NCBI GenBank assembly: GCA_003557485.1
Contig: PWOI01000189.1
Coordinates: 1-52,531 of the forward strand
Length of the DNA stretch: 52,531 nucleotides
Reading direction: 5' to 3'
Origin: Elusimicrobiota bacterium
GTDB taxonomy: Bacteria; CG03; SLGR01; PWQF01
Shown here one piece after another: positions 230-8,965 of this stretch; position 1 is the first letter of the stretch, and each line of letters begins with the position of its first letter. The notes below the pieces were generated by a model. The model ran no database searches. It was given only the letters and a program-made list of their open reading frames with translations, and was not told the DNA's origin. The translations under genes and the position numbers were made by a program.

Positions 230-1306
230 TTACTGTTTATCCAGTTCTTTTTTCAGGGCATCAAGGGCGCGTCTGATATCTTTTTCAAAACACCACCCCA
301 TGTGAGCAACCCTGATTATCTTTCCCTTAAGATGAGACTGGCCGCCGGCAAAAACCATCCTGGCATCCTCTTCGAGGCTTGTAAGAATTTTTTTACAGTC
401 TTTCCCTTCAGGGACTTTTACGGCAGTAAGGCCGTTTGAGGGACTTAAGGCAAACAGCTCAAGCCCCATATCCTTTAGTCCTTCACGGGCTATGGTTGCA
501 AGGTCACGGTGTCTCTGCCATACATTTTCCATACCCTCTTTAAGGAGCATCTCTATTGCCTTGTCCAATCCATATACCATATTCACCGCAGGGGTATAAG
601 GAGTCTGCAAGTTTTTAAGCGAAGCGGAGGCTTTTTTTAAGTCCCAGTAATAACATTTACGGGTATTCTTTTCGTAAACCTGCCTGGCTTTATCTCCAAC
701 ACAGAGCAGCCCCAAACCGGGAGGATTCATAAGCGCTTTATGAGACGCAGCTGCAACTATGTCAACTCCCCACTGGTCGGTTTCAAGTTCCTCGCAGGCA
801 AGGCCGCTGACCGCATCAACTATCAGCAGAGCATTCGTGTCCCTGACCGCTTCGGCCAGTTCTTTAATCGGGTGAACAACTGCCGTAGAAGTTTCCAGAA
901 GAGTTGCAAAAACCGCCTTTATATCAGGATTAGACTGAAGGCATTCCCTTACCTTTCCGGGATCAACAGCTTCGCCCCAGGTACAGTCTATTATTTCGGT
1001 TTCGACATCGAATGCACTACAGAGCTGAGCCCACCTCTGCCCGAATTTCCCCGATATTATAACAAGAGCTTTATCACCGGGAGAAGTAAAATTTACTACG
1101 GAAGCTTCCATCGCTCCCGTACCCGAAGAAGAAAAGAGAAAAATCTCTCCCTGACTGCGAAATACTTTGGCGGAATTCTTAATTACATTTTCAAATATTC
1201 CGCTAAATTCCTTTTTCCTGTGATGCATTACCTTGCCCGATATGGCTTTAAGAACTTCTTTTGGAACTTCCGTAGGGCCCGGGGTAAAAAGTCTTTTGTC
1301 TTTCAT
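230..1306 (-). CDS. Class V PLP aminotransferase (alanine/serine-glyoxylate type)
   Basis: A 358-residue fold-type I aminotransferase of the AGXT / serine-pyruvate family. The N-terminal FTPGPTEVP signature, Asp164 (IVDAVSG, contacts the PLP ring nitrogen) and the Schiff-base lysine Lys190 in SHKAL are all visible. Length is normal for the family. It starts at ATG 1306, three bases after the serA stop, so it is translated from the serA transcript. In several bacteria and archaea lacking a classical SerC, an AGXT-like enzyme beside SerA is thought to carry out the phosphoserine-aminotransferase step; that role is inferred here from context. Serine-glyoxylate or alanine-glyoxylate transamination is the alternative. 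Confidence 0.9.
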   Translation of the reverse strand: MKDKRLFTPGPTEVPKEVLKAISGKVMHHRKKEFSGIFENVIKNSAKVFRSQGEIFLFSSSGTGAMEASVVNFTSPGDKALVIISGKFGQRWAQLCSAFDVETEIIDCTWGEAVDPGKVRECLQSNPDIKAVFATLLETSTAVVHPIKELAEAVRDTNALLIVDAVSGLACEELETDQWGVDIVAAASHKALMNPPGLGLLCVGDKARQVYEKNTRKCYYWDLKKASASLKNLQTPYTPAVNMVYGLDKAIEMLLKEGMENVWQRHRDLATIAREGLKDMGLELFALSPSNGLTAVKVPEGKDCKKILTSLEEDARMVFAGGQSHLKGKIIRVAHMGWCFEKDIRRALDALKKELDKQ

Positions 1307-1309
1307 TTG

Positions 1310-2260
1310 TTATTCACTCTCCTTTTCCTGAACTGAATTCACAGCCGATACAATATTCCCATTATTAAGGAAGTCCGCAACCTGCTGCGCTATCATAACA
1401 CCGCAACGCGCCTGGGCTTCGTCCGTAGAAGCGGCAAGGTGCGGGGTATGGCATATCCTTTCTGAGCCGCATAAAGGCGAATTTACCGGCGGTTCGTTTT
1501 CGTACACATCTATGCAGGCTCCTCTTATCTTGCCAGCGCACAGAGCCTCGGCCAGCGCTTTCTCTTCTATTATTCCGCCGCGGGAACAATTTACCAGTAT
1601 AGCCTCTTTTTTCATCCTGGCAATTTCTTCGCTGCCTATCATTCCCCGGGTCTTATCGGACATAGGGATATGTACCGTTATGATATCAGAGTCCTTTATT
1701 ATTTCTTCAAGTTCAGATTTTTCAAACTGAGAGTCTATCTCAGGAATATAAGGGTCGTATACTTTAACTTTCATTCCAAAGGCAAGCGCCCGTTTTGCTA
1801 CTTCTTTTCCTATACGGCCAAAACCGATAATCCCGAGAGTTTTGCCGTACAATTCTATTCCTTTATACTTCTTTCTTTCCCACTGGCCGCTACTGAGCGA
1901 ATCGTGAGCCAGATGAATATTACGGGCAAAAGCAAGCATAAGAGCAAAGGTATGCTCCGCTGCGGATATTGAATTGCCGGAAGGAGAATTCATAACGAGT
2001 ACCCCTTTTCCGGTTGCCGCATCAATATCTATGTTATCGACTCCGGCGCCGGCACGCCCTATAACTTTAAGCTTTTCAGCTCCTTCCATAAGGTCCGCAG
2101 TAACTTTTGTTCCGCTCCTTACAATGAGCCCTTCGGCATCTTTAAGTGCTTCTTTAATCTCTTGAGTATCGGCAGAAGGCCTGTAGTCAACTTCTATTCC
2201 TTCCTGCTTAAGGATACTGATACATTCATCAGCAATTGCGTCGCTTATTAGAACTTTCAT
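1310..2260 (-). CDS. serA: D-3-phosphoglycerate dehydrogenase, short form
   Basis: NAD-dependent oxidation of 3-phosphoglycerate to 3-phosphohydroxypyruvate, first step of serine synthesis. The 316 residues contain the substrate domain, the Rossmann GIIGFGRIG motif (143-151) and the catalytic set Arg227 (CSRGG), Glu256 (YENEPP) and His274 (HTPHLAAS). It lacks the C-terminal ASB/ACT regulatory domains of the 400-530 residue forms, so serine feedback by that route is not expected. A well-placed GGAG ribosome site precedes ATG 2260, and a near-consensus promoter lies about 60 bases upstream. It shares 3-phosphoglycerate with the neighbouring cyclic-diphosphoglycerate genes. A generic 2-hydroxyacid dehydrogenase is possible, but the context favours SerA. 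Confidence 0.9.
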   Translation of the reverse strand: MKVLISDAIADECISILKQEGIEVDYRPSADTQEIKEALKDAEGLIVRSGTKVTADLMEGAEKLKVIGRAGAGVDNIDIDAATGKGVLVMNSPSGNSISAAEHTFALMLAFARNIHLAHDSLSSGQWERKKYKGIELYGKTLGIIGFGRIGKEVAKRALAFGMKVKVYDPYIPEIDSQFEKSELEEIIKDSDIITVHIPMSDKTRGMIGSEEIARMKKEAILVNCSRGGIIEEKALAEALCAGKIRGACIDVYENEPPVNSPLCGSERICHTPHLAASTDEAQARCGVMIAQQVADFLNNGNIVSAVNSVQEKESE

Positions 2261-2401: not shown

Positions 2402-3952
2402 TTACATAAATGGGAACGATTTTTTATTAGCGGTATTAAATTTTTTTACTGCCCTGCTGACGCATTTTAATATAGCTCTGTCCATATCATTATTCTTTTC
2501 CGCGGGGCTGAAATCCCCGTTCACAAGACGGGGGATATTGTTTATGTAGAAGTAATCCAATGAGTATTTATTTTCTGCATACCTTGCTCCCTCTACTCCC
2601 CTGGCTTTTATCTCTACAAGCAGGCAGTCGGGACTGTTTTCTTTTACAGCCCTGTCTATTGAATATTTCATTTCTTCGTCCCTGTCAAGGTTGTTGAGGG
2701 TTTCCGTTATTTCAAGATCATATTTTTCACTGAGCTGGGCTGAAAGCTTCTCAAGTATGTAATCCGGCGCAGTGGTAAGGAAGAGAGCTTTCTTTCCTTT
2801 CAAATCAGCCGGGGAAGATACCGCTTCAGGTTCAAACCTGGTAAGAAAAACTTCGGCAGTGGGGTTCTTTTCTTTTAAAACATCTTTTATTTTACTGATT
2901 TTTCCAGGATCTGAGGTTTCCCTCTGGCAGTTTGCAAGGATGAAAAGTAAAGCTTTCTCCAGCCCGGGAAAATCCCTGAGAAGGTCAATGTCAACATCCG
3001 AAGGAACAAAAAAGATAACACCGTCCACTGCCGCCGGCGGATGTTCGGCTCCGCTTCCTTCGTGTATGATAAGGTTCGCTCCGCTGCTGTTTGCTTTTTT
3101 TATACCCCGGTCGACGTTGGATACGGCGAATTCGTTATAATAACCGGCGCCGGCACGGCGGCAGCCTATCAGTGAGATATAGGGTACTTCTTTTCCCTCT
3201 TTTTCAAGAGAGTCAAGGTAGGTTGAAATTATAAGGGCGTCTTCAAAAACATCTGAAGCACCGTGAAGACTGAAATCAAGAAGCCGCGCAAGATACTCGG
3301 GTTTAAACCTTGAGGAAAGAAGTTCTTTCTTTGTAAGTTCTTCCGGTTTTTTTTCTGACTCCTTCCTGTGTATCTCTATAAGGGGAGGATCCGGCGGGCC
3401 ACCCCTGGAATGGGTTATTATAACAGGCTTGAAGGGGGTATCTATCCCGTTTATGCCGCATATCAGACCGCCGATATATGAACCGAAAGCTGTCTTGCCT
3501 ACCCTCTTATTTGTCGCATAAAGCCCTATTGACGGTTTCCTGTGCCTTACAGGTGATTTATACTCAGAAAAAACAGTACCCCCGGCTATATAGGATGCGC
3601 CGAATGACACCGATATCCTTGCAAGCTCCACCGTCCTGCTCCGGAAAATCTGGGGAGCACCTGAAAGCTGAACCACGGTATCAATACAGTTCTTTCCCGA
3701 AAGAAAATCTCTTAAACCTTTTTCGGGAACCGCGCGTCCGCCTGAGTCTTCAGGGAACAGGACCTCTGCTGAGAATTCTTTTCTGAAGACTTCCGAAAAC
3801 GATTCTCTGCTCTCAATCTTTTCCGTACCACCTATCCAGATAAGGGCGCTGACTTTTACCCGGTGCATACGGCAGAGCTTTTTTATGGAATTTACGGTAT
3901 TCCCTGGAGTGTGGACTCCGTCAATCAGAAACAGGGCTTTTTTCTTGGACAA
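2402..3952 (-). CDS. cpgS: Cyclic 2,3-diphosphoglycerate synthetase
   Basis: ATP-dependent closure of 2,3-diphosphoglycerate to the cyclic pyrophosphate, known from Methanothermus and related methanogens as a thermo- and osmoprotective solute. The 516-residue product carries features I recall for this family in order: ALIWIGGTEK (36-45), a P-loop-like NKRVGKTA (148-155), SRGGPPDPP (182-190), GCRRAGAG (263-270) and HEGSGAEHPP (297-306). It is some 50 residues longer than the archaeal enzyme as I remember it, mainly in the middle and at the C-terminus. The start is TTG at 3952 with an AAAGGAG site six bases upstream; it overlaps the mutase gene by 32 bases. The mutase and 2-phosphoglycerate kinase upstream supply its substrate, which makes the call firm although bacterial examples are rare. 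Confidence 0.9.
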   Translation of the reverse strand: MSKKKALFLIDGVHTPGNTVNSIKKLCRMHRVKVSALIWIGGTEKIESRESFSEVFRKEFSAEVLFPEDSGGRAVPEKGLRDFLSGKNCIDTVVQLSGAPQIFRSRTVELARISVSFGASYIAGGTVFSEYKSPVRHRKPSIGLYATNKRVGKTAFGSYIGGLICGINGIDTPFKPVIITHSRGGPPDPPLIEIHRKESEKKPEELTKKELLSSRFKPEYLARLLDFSLHGASDVFEDALIISTYLDSLEKEGKEVPYISLIGCRRAGAGYYNEFAVSNVDRGIKKANSSGANLIIHEGSGAEHPPAAVDGVIFFVPSDVDIDLLRDFPGLEKALLFILANCQRETSDPGKISKIKDVLKEKNPTAEVFLTRFEPEAVSSPADLKGKKALFLTTAPDYILEKLSAQLSEKYDLEITETLNNLDRDEEMKYSIDRAVKENSPDCLLVEIKARGVEGARYAENKYSLDYFYINNIPRLVNGDFSPAEKNNDMDRAILKCVSRAVKKFNTANKKSFPFM

Positions 3953-5567
3953 TTATTTCTCCTTTGAACTTTTTCTTTATATCCTCCCTCTTGCCGGGCT
4001 CCATAACCGAAAGTATTGTAGGAGCTATATCCCTGAGGCATCCGCCGGGCAGAATTTCAAACCTTCCTGATGGTAGAACCGCAAACGGCACCGGGTTTCT
4101 GGTGTGAAAAGTTGAAGGTTCGCTGTCCTCGGTTACCGAGACCTCAAGGTTGCCGTGGTCTGCGGTTATAAACGATGTCACTCCGGATCTTTCTGCGGCA
4201 GCGCATATTTCGGCAAGAGCTTTATCTACAGCCGCAGCGGCCTGAAGCGAAGCTTCAAAACTGCCGGTATGCCCTACCATATCAAGGTTTGCTATATTTA
4301 CAATTATAAATGTTTTTTCTAAGGAAGACTCTATTATTTCAATAACCTTTTCAGTCAGTTCTTTTATCTCCAGCTCAGGATATGTCTCGTACGGATCCTT
4401 CTCGTATCCTTCCTCTCCCTTATGCAGTTCATAGTCTCTTATATAATTTTTAAGCTTTTCCGGATAAGGAACTACTATTCTTTTCTCATTTTTAAACGGT
4501 TTTGTCCGGCTGCCGCCGGAGAGAAGGACTACGGCATGGGTCTTATCCGGACCACTTACCCTGTACTGCCGGTAGCCGGATTCTTCAAGATAGCTTCCGA
4601 GGGAATGACTCTGTTTTTCGTCAGGGTATGCTGCAGGCGCAGCCATATCCCTGTAATATTCCACCAAACCTGCTATATTAAGTGTTCTATAATCAAGGTC
4701 TTTTCTGTATTCAAGTTTTCTGAAGTCCGGGTCTCCCGTTACTTCTCTTATTTTCTCCTGATCCTCGGCAAGCAGGGTCATAAGCATATGAGAGCGATCC
4801 TTGCGGAAATTAAAATGAATAAGAGAGTCGCCGTTTTCCACTCCCCCGTAATCACCCAAAACTCTTACTTTAATATACTGATCGGTTATTCCCCGATCGT
4901 AATCTTCTTTAAGCGCTCCGAATATGTCTTCTTTCCTGTCTCCCTTCCCTTCTATTATTGCACGAAAGGTTTTGATTGTTTTTTCCCAGGAATCCCTTGA
5001 ACGGTTCATCGTCACATCTCTTCCTCCCAGTGTAGCGATTCTGACATCTGCAAGGCCGGCTGTCATTATGGCCGAGTTCTCAAGAACATCATCAGCGAAA
5101 CTTACAGCAGAAAAGGGAGGAGTGCCGCGCCCGTCAGAAAAAAAGTGTATTCTTATTCTCTTAACTCCTTTATCAAGAGCTCTTCTCATAATGGCGTACA
5201 GATGCGTTATATCTGAATGCTCGCGGTTGGTAGAGACAAGGCCCATCAGGTGGAGCGCTGTTCCGGCAGCGGCTGTTTTTTCAATTATTTGGTCTATAAC
5301 TTTGTTTTTTAGCCGGCCGTTTTCAATATCCTTTTCAACGCGCAGCATCGGATGAATATAATCAACACCGCTCATAACCTCGTGTCCGACCGCGGTAGAG
5401 CCCATCGCTTCTTCAGGCATACCTACACGCGGTCCCGTTGCCGTTATAGATACCTTGCTGAGGGAATCAAAAAAAGAAGTGTCGGACTTATGGATCGGAT
5501 TATTATCCGACTCTTGACCAACGCCCCATCCGTCTAAAATTATCAGTATGCCTTTAGCCGGAGTCAT
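3921..5567 (-). CDS. Cofactor-independent phosphoglycerate mutase, divergent
   Basis: Alkaline-phosphatase-superfamily iPGM (548 residues; the usual length is about 510). It interconverts 3- and 2-phosphoglycerate via a phospho-enzyme with two Mn ions. Metal ligand motifs are kept: LDGWG (Asp12), NLDMVGHTG, TADHGN and FHTRNPVP. Substrate motifs are kept or nearly so: EHSD (His117), DGRGTPP (145-151), NFRKDR (253-258). The nucleophile loop is altered: the family's GNSEVGH reads GSTAVGH (56-62), putting Thr58 in the catalytic serine's place. Thr is a known nucleophile in sister families, so activity is plausible but may be specialised. Its 5' end overlaps the CBS gene by 14 bases. Here it likely feeds 2-phosphoglycerate to the adjacent kinase. 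Whether it is also the glycolytic mutase is unknown. Confidence 0.87.
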   Translation of the reverse strand: MTPAKGILIILDGWGVGQESDNNPIHKSDTSFFDSLSKVSITATGPRVGMPEEAMGSTAVGHEVMSGVDYIHPMLRVEKDIENGRLKNKVIDQIIEKTAAAGTALHLMGLVSTNREHSDITHLYAIMRRALDKGVKRIRIHFFSDGRGTPPFSAVSFADDVLENSAIMTAGLADVRIATLGGRDVTMNRSRDSWEKTIKTFRAIIEGKGDRKEDIFGALKEDYDRGITDQYIKVRVLGDYGGVENGDSLIHFNFRKDRSHMLMTLLAEDQEKIREVTGDPDFRKLEYRKDLDYRTLNIAGLVEYYRDMAAPAAYPDEKQSHSLGSYLEESGYRQYRVSGPDKTHAVVLLSGGSRTKPFKNEKRIVVPYPEKLKNYIRDYELHKGEEGYEKDPYETYPELEIKELTEKVIEIIESSLEKTFIIVNIANLDMVGHTGSFEASLQAAAAVDKALAEICAAAERSGVTSFITADHGNLEVSVTEDSEPSTFHTRNPVPFAVLPSGRFEILPGGCLRDIAPTILSVMEPGKREDIKKKFKGEIIVQEKSPVSD

Positions 5568-5988
5568 TTTGCGCGCCGGTAATCTTAGTAAAAGCCCTTA
5601 TGGCGTCGCTTACGCTTATTATCCCGGCGATTTTTCCATCCTCCATAACCGGAATGCGGTGTATGTTCCGGCTGTCCATAAGTTTAAAGACCTCTAAGGC
5701 ATCATCTTCGGCTTCGACAGTAATTACTTCCCTGGTCATTATACCCTCAACCCAGTTAAACCTGCCTTTCAATTTATTAATTTCTCCCGGAGATAGTTTT
5801 ACTTTCAGCATCTCATCAACGGCATCTATGATGCTGGCCCGGGAAACTATCCCTTCAAGATTACCCCTATCATCAACAACAGGCGCTCCGGTAATCCTGT
5901 TCTCCTTAAGAATTCTTATGAGTTTTCTTACGGTATAATCCTTTTTAACAAATATTACGTTGCGGCTCATTATCTCTTTTGCTTTCAT
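5554..5988 (-). CDS. Tandem CBS-domain protein
   Basis: 144 residues consisting almost entirely of two CBS domains (about 1-60 and 80-140), each opening with the typical IMSRNVIFV / IMTREVITV strand and closing with a GIVSRASIIDA / GIISVSDAIRA helix. CBS pairs bind adenosyl ligands (AMP, ATP, SAM) and usually regulate a partner enzyme. The gene overlaps 2-phosphoglycerate kinase by four bases (ATGA) and the mutase by 14, so all three are translationally coupled. I infer that it senses adenylate status for the two ATP-consuming steps of the cyclic diphosphoglycerate route; nothing in the sequence proves the partner. Confidence 0.85.
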   Translation of the reverse strand: MKAKEIMSRNVIFVKKDYTVRKLIRILKENRITGAPVVDDRGNLEGIVSRASIIDAVDEMLKVKLSPGEINKLKGRFNWVEGIMTREVITVEAEDDALEVFKLMDSRNIHRIPVMEDGKIAGIISVSDAIRAFTKITGAQNDSG

Positions 5989-6902
5989 GACTTCCCTCCC
6001 CGTGTAAATTTATTTACTATGTAATCTATTATTTCTACAGCAGTCCTTCGCGAGTCCAGGTTGTCTATACAGAGGTATTGATGTTTTTGCGCAAGCTCAA
6101 GTATATACTCCTGTATGGTGCGGATGGATTCAAAGTTGTCTATATATTTCTGAGCACCGCGCTCCTCACTTGAAAGTCCCCTTATATAAAATCTTCTTTT
6201 ATGTTCATCCTTATTTTCTACGTATATAAAAACTTCGGCAAGATTTGCTTTTTTAAAATCCGATGGTTTAATAATGCCCGGAAGGACATGGACACCGTTA
6301 ATTATTACCGACATTTTTTCCTTCACGCTTCTTTTAATGATGCTTTTTATCCCCGCGTTTACGCGCAGGGCCTGCTCCCTGAAAGCGACGGTGACCTGAT
6401 CTTTGCCTTCCTCGAGGGGCATCCATAGCTTTTTTCCCGCAAGGTATGAGGATGTATGAATCACCGGAAGAACTTCTTTTGGAAAAAAGGTGCGCATTAC
6501 CTCCCTTAAAACATCGGTTGTTATTACATTTACAATATCAAGCCGCCGCGCAAGCTCTACTGCTACTGTGTTTTTACCGGACCCTGTAGACCCCCCCACC
6601 AGCAGAATAAGGGGTGTTCCTATGTTCATAAACTTGCGGAACTTGATATACCTTTCGGCGGTATTTTCACCCAGAGTCTCCTTAATCTTTTCGTATGCGG
6701 ATTTTCTTAAATCCGAACGGGAAATCCGCGCCGTATTTTTTTTCTGCAGTTCCTGGCCGAGATCTCTTGCGATTGCGTTGGCCCTGTGGAACTCAACCCC
6801 TATGCTTTCAAGCGAGTTAGCAAGTATGAACGGCGCATAGGGCTGCCTGAAATCAGCGCTGACAACCTGCGTTACATTAAAACCTTTATTCTTTCCGGTC
6901 AT
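5985..6902 (-). CDS. pgk2: 2-phosphoglycerate kinase with N-terminal ATP-cone
   Basis: Phosphorylates 2-phosphoglycerate to 2,3-diphosphoglycerate, the first committed step toward cyclic 2,3-diphosphoglycerate. The 305-residue protein has an ATP-cone-like regulatory domain (about 5-95) and then a P-loop kinase domain with GGSTGSGKNT (103-112), TTDVLREVMR and HTSSYLAG, matching the layout of the methanogen enzyme. A GGGGAGG site lies eight bases before ATG 6902. It overlaps the NYN gene upstream by 17 bases and the CBS gene downstream by four. Related P-loop kinases exist in other bacteria without the synthetase; the synthetase three genes downstream makes this assignment strong. The gene symbol is descriptive. 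Confidence 0.9.
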   Translation of the reverse strand: MTGKNKGFNVTQVVSADFRQPYAPFILANSLESIGVEFHRANAIARDLGQELQKKNTARISRSDLRKSAYEKIKETLGENTAERYIKFRKFMNIGTPLILLVGGSTGSGKNTVAVELARRLDIVNVITTDVLREVMRTFFPKEVLPVIHTSSYLAGKKLWMPLEEGKDQVTVAFREQALRVNAGIKSIIKRSVKEKMSVIINGVHVLPGIIKPSDFKKANLAEVFIYVENKDEHKRRFYIRGLSSEERGAQKYIDNFESIRTIQEYILELAQKHQYLCIDNLDSRRTAVEIIDYIVNKFTRGGKS

Positions 6903-7377
6903 TTTTATCGCCTCCCCATTTTTTCTTAAGATCTCCTGTTATCTTATTCTGCAGGCTTGGAGTAATGCCGCTCTCTGTAAAGGGCTCTTTTTTCTTATGC
7001 GGAGGAAAAAGGCGGGGTATAAATTCATCCAGAGCCATATATCTTCCGCCGGCGGCCTTTACCTTTTTTCTCAGGAGTTTATCATTGGTAACCGCCACCA
7101 TTTCCGCAGGCCGTGGTGATTTCAAAACTTCTCTTTCAATATAGTCATCAGCCTCGGCTCCGCTGGTATAGACAACCTTAACCTTTTTTTCAGGTGGAGA
7201 CGAAACCCCGGGCTGTCCGTCAAAAAAAACGGTTATGGTATTGCGGACCGAACCCTGAGGACGGTTTTCCGCTATGGCTTCTACTAGATGCCTGCGGGCG
7301 CTTCTTATTGAATCCGGAAAATAGTCCGGCTTTGACTGAATGAGGTTGTATCCGTCAATTAAGTAGTGAAGAGACAC
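6886..7377 (-). CDS. YacP-like NYN (PIN-like) domain protein
   Basis: A small NYN/YacP-type domain opening with HYLIDGYNLI and continuing with TVFFDGQPG, EADDYIEREV and VVAVTND-like segments; the acidic residues (Asp of LIDGYN, Asp of FFDGQ, Asp-Asp of EADDYI, Asp of TND) fit the PIN-like nuclease active site. Homologues are Rae1/YacP ribosome-associated endoribonucleases. I prefer the GTG start at 7377, four bases after the OppA-like stop, because family members begin directly before the LIDGYN strand. An ATG at 7410 would add 11 residues and overlap the upstream gene. Its link to the neighbouring phosphoglycerate genes is positional only. Confidence 0.78.
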   Translation of the reverse strand: MSLHYLIDGYNLIQSKPDYFPDSIRSARRHLVEAIAENRPQGSVRNTITVFFDGQPGVSSPPEKKVKVVYTSGAEADDYIEREVLKSPRPAEMVAVTNDKLLRKKVKAAGGRYMALDEFIPRLFPPHKKKEPFTESGITPSLQNKITGDLKKKWGGDKNDRKE

Positions 7378-7381
7378 CTCT

Positions 7382-8965
7382 TCAGTACCTTCTGAGTTCC
7401 TCGGGGACATACCACTCTATGAAGTTATGCCCTATTCCGGACTTTGCCAGTTCTATGTTATGGAAACGGTTATCTATAACTACCCTGGAGTCTGCAAAAT
7501 AAAGAAAAAGATAAGGCTGGTCCGCGTGAAGGTGCTCGTGTACCTGACGGTATATCTCTCTGCGCCTATCTGTATCAAAAATTCTCCGGCCCTCCTCAAG
7601 CAGGCTGTCTACTTCCCTGTTAACATACCCGGTAAAGTTGTACTGGTGCTCGCCCATCTGGGAGGAATGCCATAGGCTGTACTGGTCCGGGTCCACTGTA
7701 AGAGACCACCCCAGGACTATGGCGTCAAAACGGCGGGGGTTGACATACTGGTGTATGAAGGAACTCCACTCCTGGATACGGACCCTTACATCCATCCCTA
7801 TATTACCGAGATGCTGCTGTATTATTTCAGCGGTAAGCCGCCTCATCACATTGCCTTCGTTCGTCATAAGGGTAAAAGAAAAAGGCCTGCCGTCTTTCTC
7901 AAGAATTCCGCTGCGCGGATTTTTCTGCCAGCCTGCTTCCTTTAAAAGGCGTTTTGCTTTTGCGGGATCGTAACCGTGATCTTCAACAGTAGGATCGTAG
8001 GCCCAGGAAACCGGCGGGTAAGGCCCGGTCGCCGGGGTGCCGAGTCCGCTCAGAGCGGCTTCTATTATTTCGTCCTTGTTTACCGCATAGCTTATGGCCC
8101 GCCGGACTCTTACATCGGAAAAAAGTTCGTTATTCAGGTTGTATCCTATATAGGTAAAAGAAAATGAGGGATATTTAAATCGCTGAAACCGCTGAAGGAA
8201 TTCTTCTTTTCCCGTTTCCCTTACCCATTGTTCCGGCGTAGGGCTCATCCAGTCCACGGTACCCCGCATCAGTTCCATAAACTGCACGGAAACATCGGGC
8301 ACTACCCTGTATATGACCCTGCCTATGCCGGGGCGGCCTTCAAAATAGTCGGGGTTTGCCTCAAGCACAATCCTGTCATCGGTCCTCCAGTCGCGGAAAA
8401 TATAGGGGCCGGTCCCTACGGGGTTTCTGTTATGGGGATTTTCATTAATATCGGTCCCTTCATAAAGATGACGGGGGATTATATTCATTCCCCAGCTCTG
8501 AAGAGCCGGGGATAACGGTTCGGAATATTTAACTTTTACCGTATAATCGTCAGGGGCATAAATCTCTTCAATCAGCTCAAAGCGTGACGAGTGAGGGGTG
8601 CGGGTTTTCGGGTCTACAAGCTTTTCGTAAGTAAATAATACGTCACCTGCGGTAAACTTCTCCCCGTCGTGCCAGAAGACATCGTCCCGCAAATAGAACG
8701 TTATCTGCAGGCCGTCATCCGAAATATCCCAGGTTTCTGCCAGATCACCGGTAAGTTGGAGGTTTTTATCGTACTTTACGAGGCCGTTAAAGACAAGGTT
8801 GTTTATATCGTTAGAGGCGCTGTCTGCAGAAAGGAGAGGGTTAAGGTAGGTGGCGTCTCCTATGGTAGCCCAGATTATAGCATCGCCCTCAACTGACGGA
8901 CATCTTTCGCCGCAGGCTGCAAGAACTAAAACAAGCGCAATAAATAACAGGTTTATTTTTTTCAT
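7382..8965 (-). CDS. Family 5 solute-binding lipoprotein (OppA/DppA type)
   Basis: 527-residue extracytoplasmic substrate-binding protein. The signal peptide ends in lipobox LAAC, so Cys18 would be lipidated. The SBP_bac_5 signatures follow: ATWGxxxxLNPL-like region near 33-45, LAETWDISDDG and FYLRDDVFWHDGE (about 90-120), and GTGPYIF in the middle. The usual ligand is a peptide, though family members also carry nickel, sugars or opines. No permease or ATPase genes are near, so it either serves a transporter encoded elsewhere or acts as a sensor. It lies at the head of the overlapping cyclic-diphosphoglycerate gene series and 33 bases after YjbQ. Confidence 0.88.
   Translation of the reverse strand: MKKINLLFIALVLVLAACGERCPSVEGDAIIWATIGDATYLNPLLSADSASNDINNLVFNGLVKYDKNLQLTGDLAETWDISDDGLQITFYLRDDVFWHDGEKFTAGDVLFTYEKLVDPKTRTPHSSRFELIEEIYAPDDYTVKVKYSEPLSPALQSWGMNIIPRHLYEGTDINENPHNRNPVGTGPYIFRDWRTDDRIVLEANPDYFEGRPGIGRVIYRVVPDVSVQFMELMRGTVDWMSPTPEQWVRETGKEEFLQRFQRFKYPSFSFTYIGYNLNNELFSDVRVRRAISYAVNKDEIIEAALSGLGTPATGPYPPVSWAYDPTVEDHGYDPAKAKRLLKEAGWQKNPRSGILEKDGRPFSFTLMTNEGNVMRRLTAEIIQQHLGNIGMDVRVRIQEWSSFIHQYVNPRRFDAIVLGWSLTVDPDQYSLWHSSQMGEHQYNFTGYVNREVDSLLEEGRRIFDTDRRREIYRQVHEHLHADQPYLFLYFADSRVVIDNRFHNIELAKSGIGHNFIEWYVPEELRRY

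Follow-up and report, generated by a model that had tools for sequence, protein, structure and literature searches.

Four genes on the minus strand of the window, which is the whole analyzed stretch of 52,531 nucleotides, encode in the order of transcription a 2-phosphoglycerate kinase (2PGK), a CBS-pair protein, an iPGM-like enzyme, and a cyclic 2,3-diphosphoglycerate (cDPG) synthetase, cDPGS (Table 1). The reading frame and the stop codon are intact in all four genes, and the successive overlaps along the string are 4, 14, and 32 bases. This is in agreement with the sequence-only reading, which had described four genes overlapping head to tail by 4-32 bases. The gene identities given there (iPGM family, CBS-pair, 2PGK, cDPGS) were upheld by family, structure-sequence, and fold matches, and the same is true for the proposed self-contained module. 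The synthetase gene starts with TTG, the motif AAAGGAG is found about 7 bases upstream, and an in-frame TAA lies just ahead of the TTG.

Table 1. Coordinates of the genes and features at the cDPG locus, and of metallophosphoesterase genes at loci in other genomes
Feature	Position	Strand	Basis
2-phosphoglycerate kinase (ATP-cone and P-loop kinase), 305 aa	5985..6902	-	NF003259/PRK04220 match, predicted fold, Walker A
Two-CBS-domain protein, 144 aa, candidate nucleotide sensor	5554..5988	-	PF00571 twice, linked homologs
iPGM-like enzyme, Thr-nucleophile subfamily (GSTAVGH, DGRG), 548 aa	3921..5567	-	TIGR01307, comparison with solved iPGM
cDPGS, clade II, 516 aa, TTG start	2402..3952	-	phmmer, active site, fold
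cDPGS ribosome-binding site AAAGGAG and TTG start codon	3950..3966	-	read from sequence
YacP-like NYN-domain protein, conserved upstream neighbor	6886..7410	-	PF05991 E 7.5e-16, conserved order
Solute-binding lipoprotein-like gene (SBP), conserved upstream neighbor	7382..8965	-	ORF; family from sequence only
Metallophosphoesterase	L047:10630-12162		
Metallophosphoesterase	L082:10672-12165		
Metallophosphoesterase	L093:96-1130		
Metallophosphoesterase	L195:5120-5938		
Metallophosphoesterase	L196:5285-6091		
Metallophosphoesterase	L198:3780-4451		

The YacP/NYN gene overlaps the 2PGK gene by 17 bases, and therefore the transcription unit probably reaches further upstream. The YacP-like gene itself probably lies outside the cDPG pathway. 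The complete series YjbQ-SBP-YacP-2PGK-CBS-iPGM-cDPGS is present in L016 and L020, two further genomes of the window's order, and contig ends fall inside the cluster in G001 and G004. SBP homologs at the same position are about 60-63% identical, and the identity is 88% in the congener G001. Promoter and terminator scans of the region yielded nothing informative. Downstream of cDPGS (window 230-2260) lie genes for a SerA-like dehydrogenase of 316 aa, whose match to the 525-residue model is limited to positions 1-314, and for a class V aminotransferase akin to the BhcA and PhnW families. Both were ruled out as members of the module, because they are not conserved beside the cDPG cluster.

The synthetase and the kinase

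No Pfam or NCBIfam model covers the synthetase of the window. Phmmer matched it over nearly its whole length to 8ORK, 8ORU, and 9SXB (E 5e-45 to 3e-41), 8ORK being the solved M. fervidus cDPGS and 8ORU its 2,3-DPG complex. Residues 4-506 align to residues 5-457 of 8ORK (E 5.5e-45), including the unique N-terminal domain, and the identity with the M. fervidus enzyme is about 30%. An AlphaFold2 model (pLDDT 86) had only 8ORU and 8ORK as matches in the PDB at E < 0.001, with 518 columns matched to 8ORU (E 9.5e-34). Twelve active-site positions were taken from the structure paper (PMC10690619), and 11 of them are identical to M. fervidus, the exception being an exchange of E305 to Q. Kept are E45, K46, K145, R146, K149, T150, D208, T353, E404, and K406. 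The substrate-binding or catalytic residues E45, K145, R146, K149, T150, D208, and K406 correspond to E44, K149, R150, K153, T154, D234, and K449 of the window protein; among the nucleotide contacts T353 (T394) and E404 (E447) are kept, and E305 is Q343. This exchange is present in the window and in all ten clade II relatives examined. One of the 12, position P335 of the structure paper, is a Phe in the chain numbering used here, and a conserved Pro two residues on is kept in the window. The window protein has insertions of 17 residues after M. fervidus position 188 and of 15 residues after position 215, the longer of which falls within the hinge, residues 186-192 of the M. fervidus enzyme (PMC10690619). 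The sequence-only reading had named missing archaeal active-site residues and a grouping with unrelated P-loop families as points to check; the 11 identical positions speak against the former, and the synthetase groups with cDPGS instead.

In an unrooted tree, a deep bacterial clade (clade II, support 100/100) unites the window synthetase with sequences from Elusimicrobia, Actinomycetota, Glassbacteria, Gemmatimonadales, and Bacillota. Clade I contains the methanogens, 9SXB, and other bacteria in a mixed arrangement. A very long branch, measuring about 4 changes per column when taken across the root as drawn, separates clade II from all characterized cDPGS. The synthetase relatives examined are a selection from a larger set with roughly 330 further members.

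The kinase matches NF003259/PRK04220 with 268.3 bits (E 9e-80), which is below the curated 343-bit cut-off. The P-loop is present with its invariant Walker A residues, and the model has the P-loop kinase fold (pLDDT 88.7). The ATP-cone is weak in the window protein (E 0.016) and strong in homologs (L036, E 3e-15).

Co-occurrence of the two enzymes was analyzed in 386 mostly bacterial genomes, which comprise relatives of the window and a spread of its domain. Full-length cDPGS was found in 12 and full-length 2PGK in 20 genomes, 11 of which are shared (Fisher 3e-15), and outside the window's order 8/9 cDPGS genomes contain 2PGK (p 1e-11); the significance is overstated in that the test takes genomes as independent, while a few share families. 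Many genomes gave weak matches to the synthetase profile (E about 1e-9, ~110 columns); these were left uncounted, and the proteins concerned were taken as a different, partly similar family. All clade II genomes that were checked, G004 included, contain 2PGK; outside the window's order (7/7) it is encoded elsewhere in the genome, in three cases within CBS-2PGK-iPGM clusters. It is also present in 14/14 Methanobacteriaceae-type genomes examined. Full-length 2PGK without a full-length cDPGS match occurs in nine of the 386 genomes, and in two of these it lies next to aPGM. Such adjoining 2PGK and aPGM genes, in genomes in which full-length cDPGS was not found, were observed in L144 and L145 (also L170, L171), and 2PGK may therefore have a role of its own.

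Three Bacillota genomes carry a clade I cDPGS and are without 2PGK (L083:266-7965, L068:3352-9149, L095). In L083, the synthetase gene is flanked by genes for a GntR-UTRA regulator and an ABC transporter. The last gene of the set encodes a circularly permuted iPGM, of which residues 11-295 align to 219-522 and residues 319-526 to 7-211 of the window iPGM. The L068 iPGM starts at the same permuted point, and this locus is cut by the contig end. Sets of the L083 type may represent a system for the uptake and use of cDPG or phosphoglycerate.

The iPGM-like enzyme, the CBS protein, and recurrent neighbors

The iPGM-like protein scores 341.6 bits with TIGR01307, above the cut-off of 330.65. In comparison to solved iPGM, the motif GNSEVGH is changed to GSTAVGH, which places Thr58 at the position of the nucleophile Ser62, and DGRD is changed to DGRG, which places Gly148 at the position of Asp154. 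Ser62 is the phosphorylated serine of iPGM, and the numbering and the roles of both residues follow 1EJJ. The metal ligands and substrate arginines are kept in the alignment. Thr58 and Gly148 are invariant in all subfamily members examined, and all genomes in which the subfamily has been found to date carry these cDPG genes. Several of these genomes encode a conventional PGM in addition, namely canonical iPGM (G391, G393, G395) or aPGM (G001, G004, G005), and therefore the operon iPGM was read as a dedicated paralog. By its sequence it is a divergent Thr-nucleophile paralog, iPGM-like rather than an ordinary glycolytic iPGM. Thus, the earlier iPGM call stands with respect to the family, and in view of the exchanges of Ser62 to Thr and of Asp154 to Gly, mutase activity should not be taken for granted. 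The kept metal ligands and arginines would favor such an activity, and the lost Asp154 points away from it. The idea that the operon iPGM is the sole PGM of the cell was dropped, because aPGM is present in relatives of the same order, the congener G001 among them. The absence of aPGM here is therefore probably due to assembly incompleteness (86.6% complete).

PF00571 matches the CBS protein in two stretches (E 4e-31). In the window's order and in Actinomycetota, Glassbacteria, and Gemmatimonadales, homologs with 48-54% identity have 2PGK, iPGM, or cDPGS as linked genes. Identity to the CBS protein of the window drops to 22-35% in Poribacteria, Mcinerneyibacterium, and Thermoplasmata; the proteins of these groups may be non-orthologous, which would imply repeated recruitment. 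Although genes for CBS proteins are frequent in general, a CBS gene adjoins 2PGK in 10 of the 14 methanogen genomes examined, far above a neighbor rate of 1-3% that was assumed for illustration, the methanogens being interrelated. The Methanobacteriaceae gene is located directly after 2PGK (L198:2232-3546, L199, L200, L201, L203, L206-L209, L211). This suggests CBS control of 2PGK also in the classical cDPG producers. The recurrent linkage, methanogens included, makes tuning by the CBS protein more credible, and a putative CBS regulation of cDPG synthesis is plausible.

The sequence-only reading had regarded the module as not known from bacteria. This has to be revised, as 2PGK-cDPGS pairs or sets recur in Poribacteria, Gemmatimonadota, Cloacimonadota, Mcinerneyibacterium, and others, and the module occurs beyond this bacterium and in more than one clade. 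In Glassbacteria and Gemmatimonadales, CBS-2PGK-iPGM are encoded apart from the synthetase (L191, L192, L193), and one actinomycetote has CBS-iPGM-cDPGS (L019) and elsewhere metallophosphoesterase-2PGK (L195). In Glassbacteria and Gemmatimonadales (L021, L023, L024, L025), PilZ (YcgR-like) genes lie upstream of the clade II synthetase, preceded by a DHH-family gene in L021 and L024; the genes of L025 are similar in size. A link to cyclic dinucleotides is possible.

In bacteria and archaea alike, genes for calcineurin-like metallophosphoesterases are repeatedly found next to 2PGK or cDPGS (Table 1), and one lies upstream of the methanogen 2PGK-CBS genes in 7 genomes, usually as the next gene. 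A membrane-bound cDPG hydrolase activity has been reported (PMC1224877), and a limited literature search found no paper naming its gene. The recurrent metallophosphoesterase is a candidate for a hydrolase of cDPG or 2,3-DPG and thus for the gene of cDPG breakdown.

Proposed pathway, alternatives, and comparison with known systems

Taken together, the four genes probably form a biosynthetic operon for cDPG. The route from 3-phosphoglycerate via 2-phosphoglycerate and 2,3-DPG to cDPG, proposed before from the sequence alone, gained support from the synthetase active site and the grouping with cDPGS. With 2PGK in 11/12 cDPGS genomes and in all clade II relatives, the pathway is well supported, and its product is predicted. 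The chemistry follows published work on M. fervidus. A pathway-dedicated mutase of the iPGM fold would convert 3-phosphoglycerate to 2-phosphoglycerate, from which 2PGK would form 2,3-DPG with ATP in the first committed ATP-using step. The clade II synthetase would then phosphorylate the 2-phosphate with a second ATP, and ring closure would release phosphate, as has been proposed for M. fervidus. The CBS-pair protein is probably a sensor of adenine nucleotides, or of another small ligand, and would adjust 2PGK. The product cDPG would serve as an intracellular phosphate and energy reserve and as a counter-ion of potassium. An acidic, halophile-like proteome was not seen (median pI 7.9, 47 window ORFs). 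The computations show the identity of the genes, the active site and the fold of the synthetase, and the co-occurrence and recurrent linkage of the genes, and from these we infer product, direction, mutase activity, CBS role, and physiology. The Poribacteria, in which these four functions recur with a PGM that is not orthologous, count in favor of cDPG synthesis. The long branch of clade II, the exchange of E305 to Q, the insertions, the 2PGK score below the cut-off, and an iPGM without Ser62 and Asp154 count against it.

Three alternatives have to be weighed. One departs from the favored explanation in the role of a single gene: the operon iPGM would act on cDPG or 2,3-DPG as a phosphatase or phosphotransferase, resulting in a make-and-break storage cycle under CBS control. 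The invariance of Thr and Gly in all members would fit, as would the additional canonical iPGM or aPGM in G004, G005, G391, G393, and G395, the aPGM of G001, where the contig ends within the cluster, and the metallophosphoesterases of other cDPG gene sets. However, metal ligands and substrate arginines are kept, the equivalent place in Poribacteria is occupied by a gene of the aPGM family, and Thr is used by other mutases of the alkaline phosphatase superfamily. Overall, we regard this alternative as rather unlikely.

Lower still we rate an altered product of the clade II enzyme, which would then be a cDPGS homolog that uses another nucleotide, or whose kinase step activates 2,3-DPG or a related phospho-acid and that releases a pyrophosphorylated or differently cyclized compound. 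The enzyme retains the charged residues that contact the substrate in 8ORU, and no clade II genome that was checked is without 2PGK, in opposition to the long branch, the clade-wide E305 exchange with the insertions, and the DHH and PilZ genes, rather than 2PGK, beside the synthetases of Glassbacteria and Gemmatimonadales. It is highly improbable that 2PGK and iPGM serve only to supply a mutase with 2,3-DPG, as cofactor or effector, and that the synthetase homolog is unrelated to it. cDPGS is encoded within the same overlapping gene string and cDPGS genomes nearly always contain 2PGK, which outweighs the nine genomes with 2PGK and without full-length cDPGS match, two with adjoining aPGM. Furthermore, no dPGM was found in the source genome (assembly 86.6% complete), and therefore a supply of dPGM with its cofactor by 2PGK is disfavored.

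cDPG synthesis, the preferred reading, would extend the distribution of a phosphate-rich solute that has been described as exclusive to hyperthermophilic methanogens (PMC10690619); a literature search, in which subscription journals were mostly uncovered, found no report of cDPG in any bacterium. For methanogens, roles in phosphate and carbon storage, as a reversible energy store, in osmotic balance, and in protein stabilization have been proposed (PMC1224877, PMC10690619), and tests of these roles in bacteria were not found in the literature. A broader and tentative idea, which we consider possible but doubtful, is that several phyla maintain a regulated cDPG reserve with a distinct synthetase clade, a Thr-iPGM that has a new activity on cDPG or 2,3-DPG or is a dedicated mutase, and a CBS sensor of 2PGK shared in principle with methanogens. 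cDPG would then buffer phosphate and energy in general, beyond its role as a thermoprotectant in hyperthermophilic archaea. A widespread bacterial pathway, if true, would change the view of what cDPG is for, offer new synthetases for enzymatic cDPG production, and make cDPG regulation testable via the recurrent CBS partner. As judged from the genes, a little-known bacterial lineage carries a complete cDPG gene set with a probable sensor and an odd, putatively pathway-specific mutase.

The M. fervidus pathway (2PGK, cDPGS; 8ORK, 8ORU) uses the same two ATP-using enzymes, its synthetase is alignable nearly end to end with that of the window and agrees at 11/12 active-site positions, and a CBS gene is also found beside 2PGK in 10/14 methanogen genomes. 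In contrast, the window synthetase belongs to a separate deep clade, has only about 30% identity, the E305 exchange, and two insertions, and its gene forms one operon with a PGM-like gene in a bacterial host. Canonical iPGM (TIGR01307; 1EJJ, 2IFY) shares full-length homology and the metal ligands with the window paralog, but has Ser62 and Asp154 instead of Thr and Gly, and enzymes of the window type are paralogs of it in genomes with both. The Poribacteria cluster (2PGK-cDPGS-aPGM-CBS; L036, L160) unites the same four functions, but with a clade I synthetase, an unrelated aPGM (PF10143) in place of iPGM, a CBS protein of 35% identity, and another gene order. The clusters of Mcinerneyibacterium and a Thermoplasmata archaeon (cDPGS-2PGK-CBS-metallophosphoesterase; L047, L082) likewise combine cDPGS, 2PGK, and CBS, but have a clade I synthetase, another CBS subfamily, and a calcineurin-like phosphoesterase in the place of the mutase.
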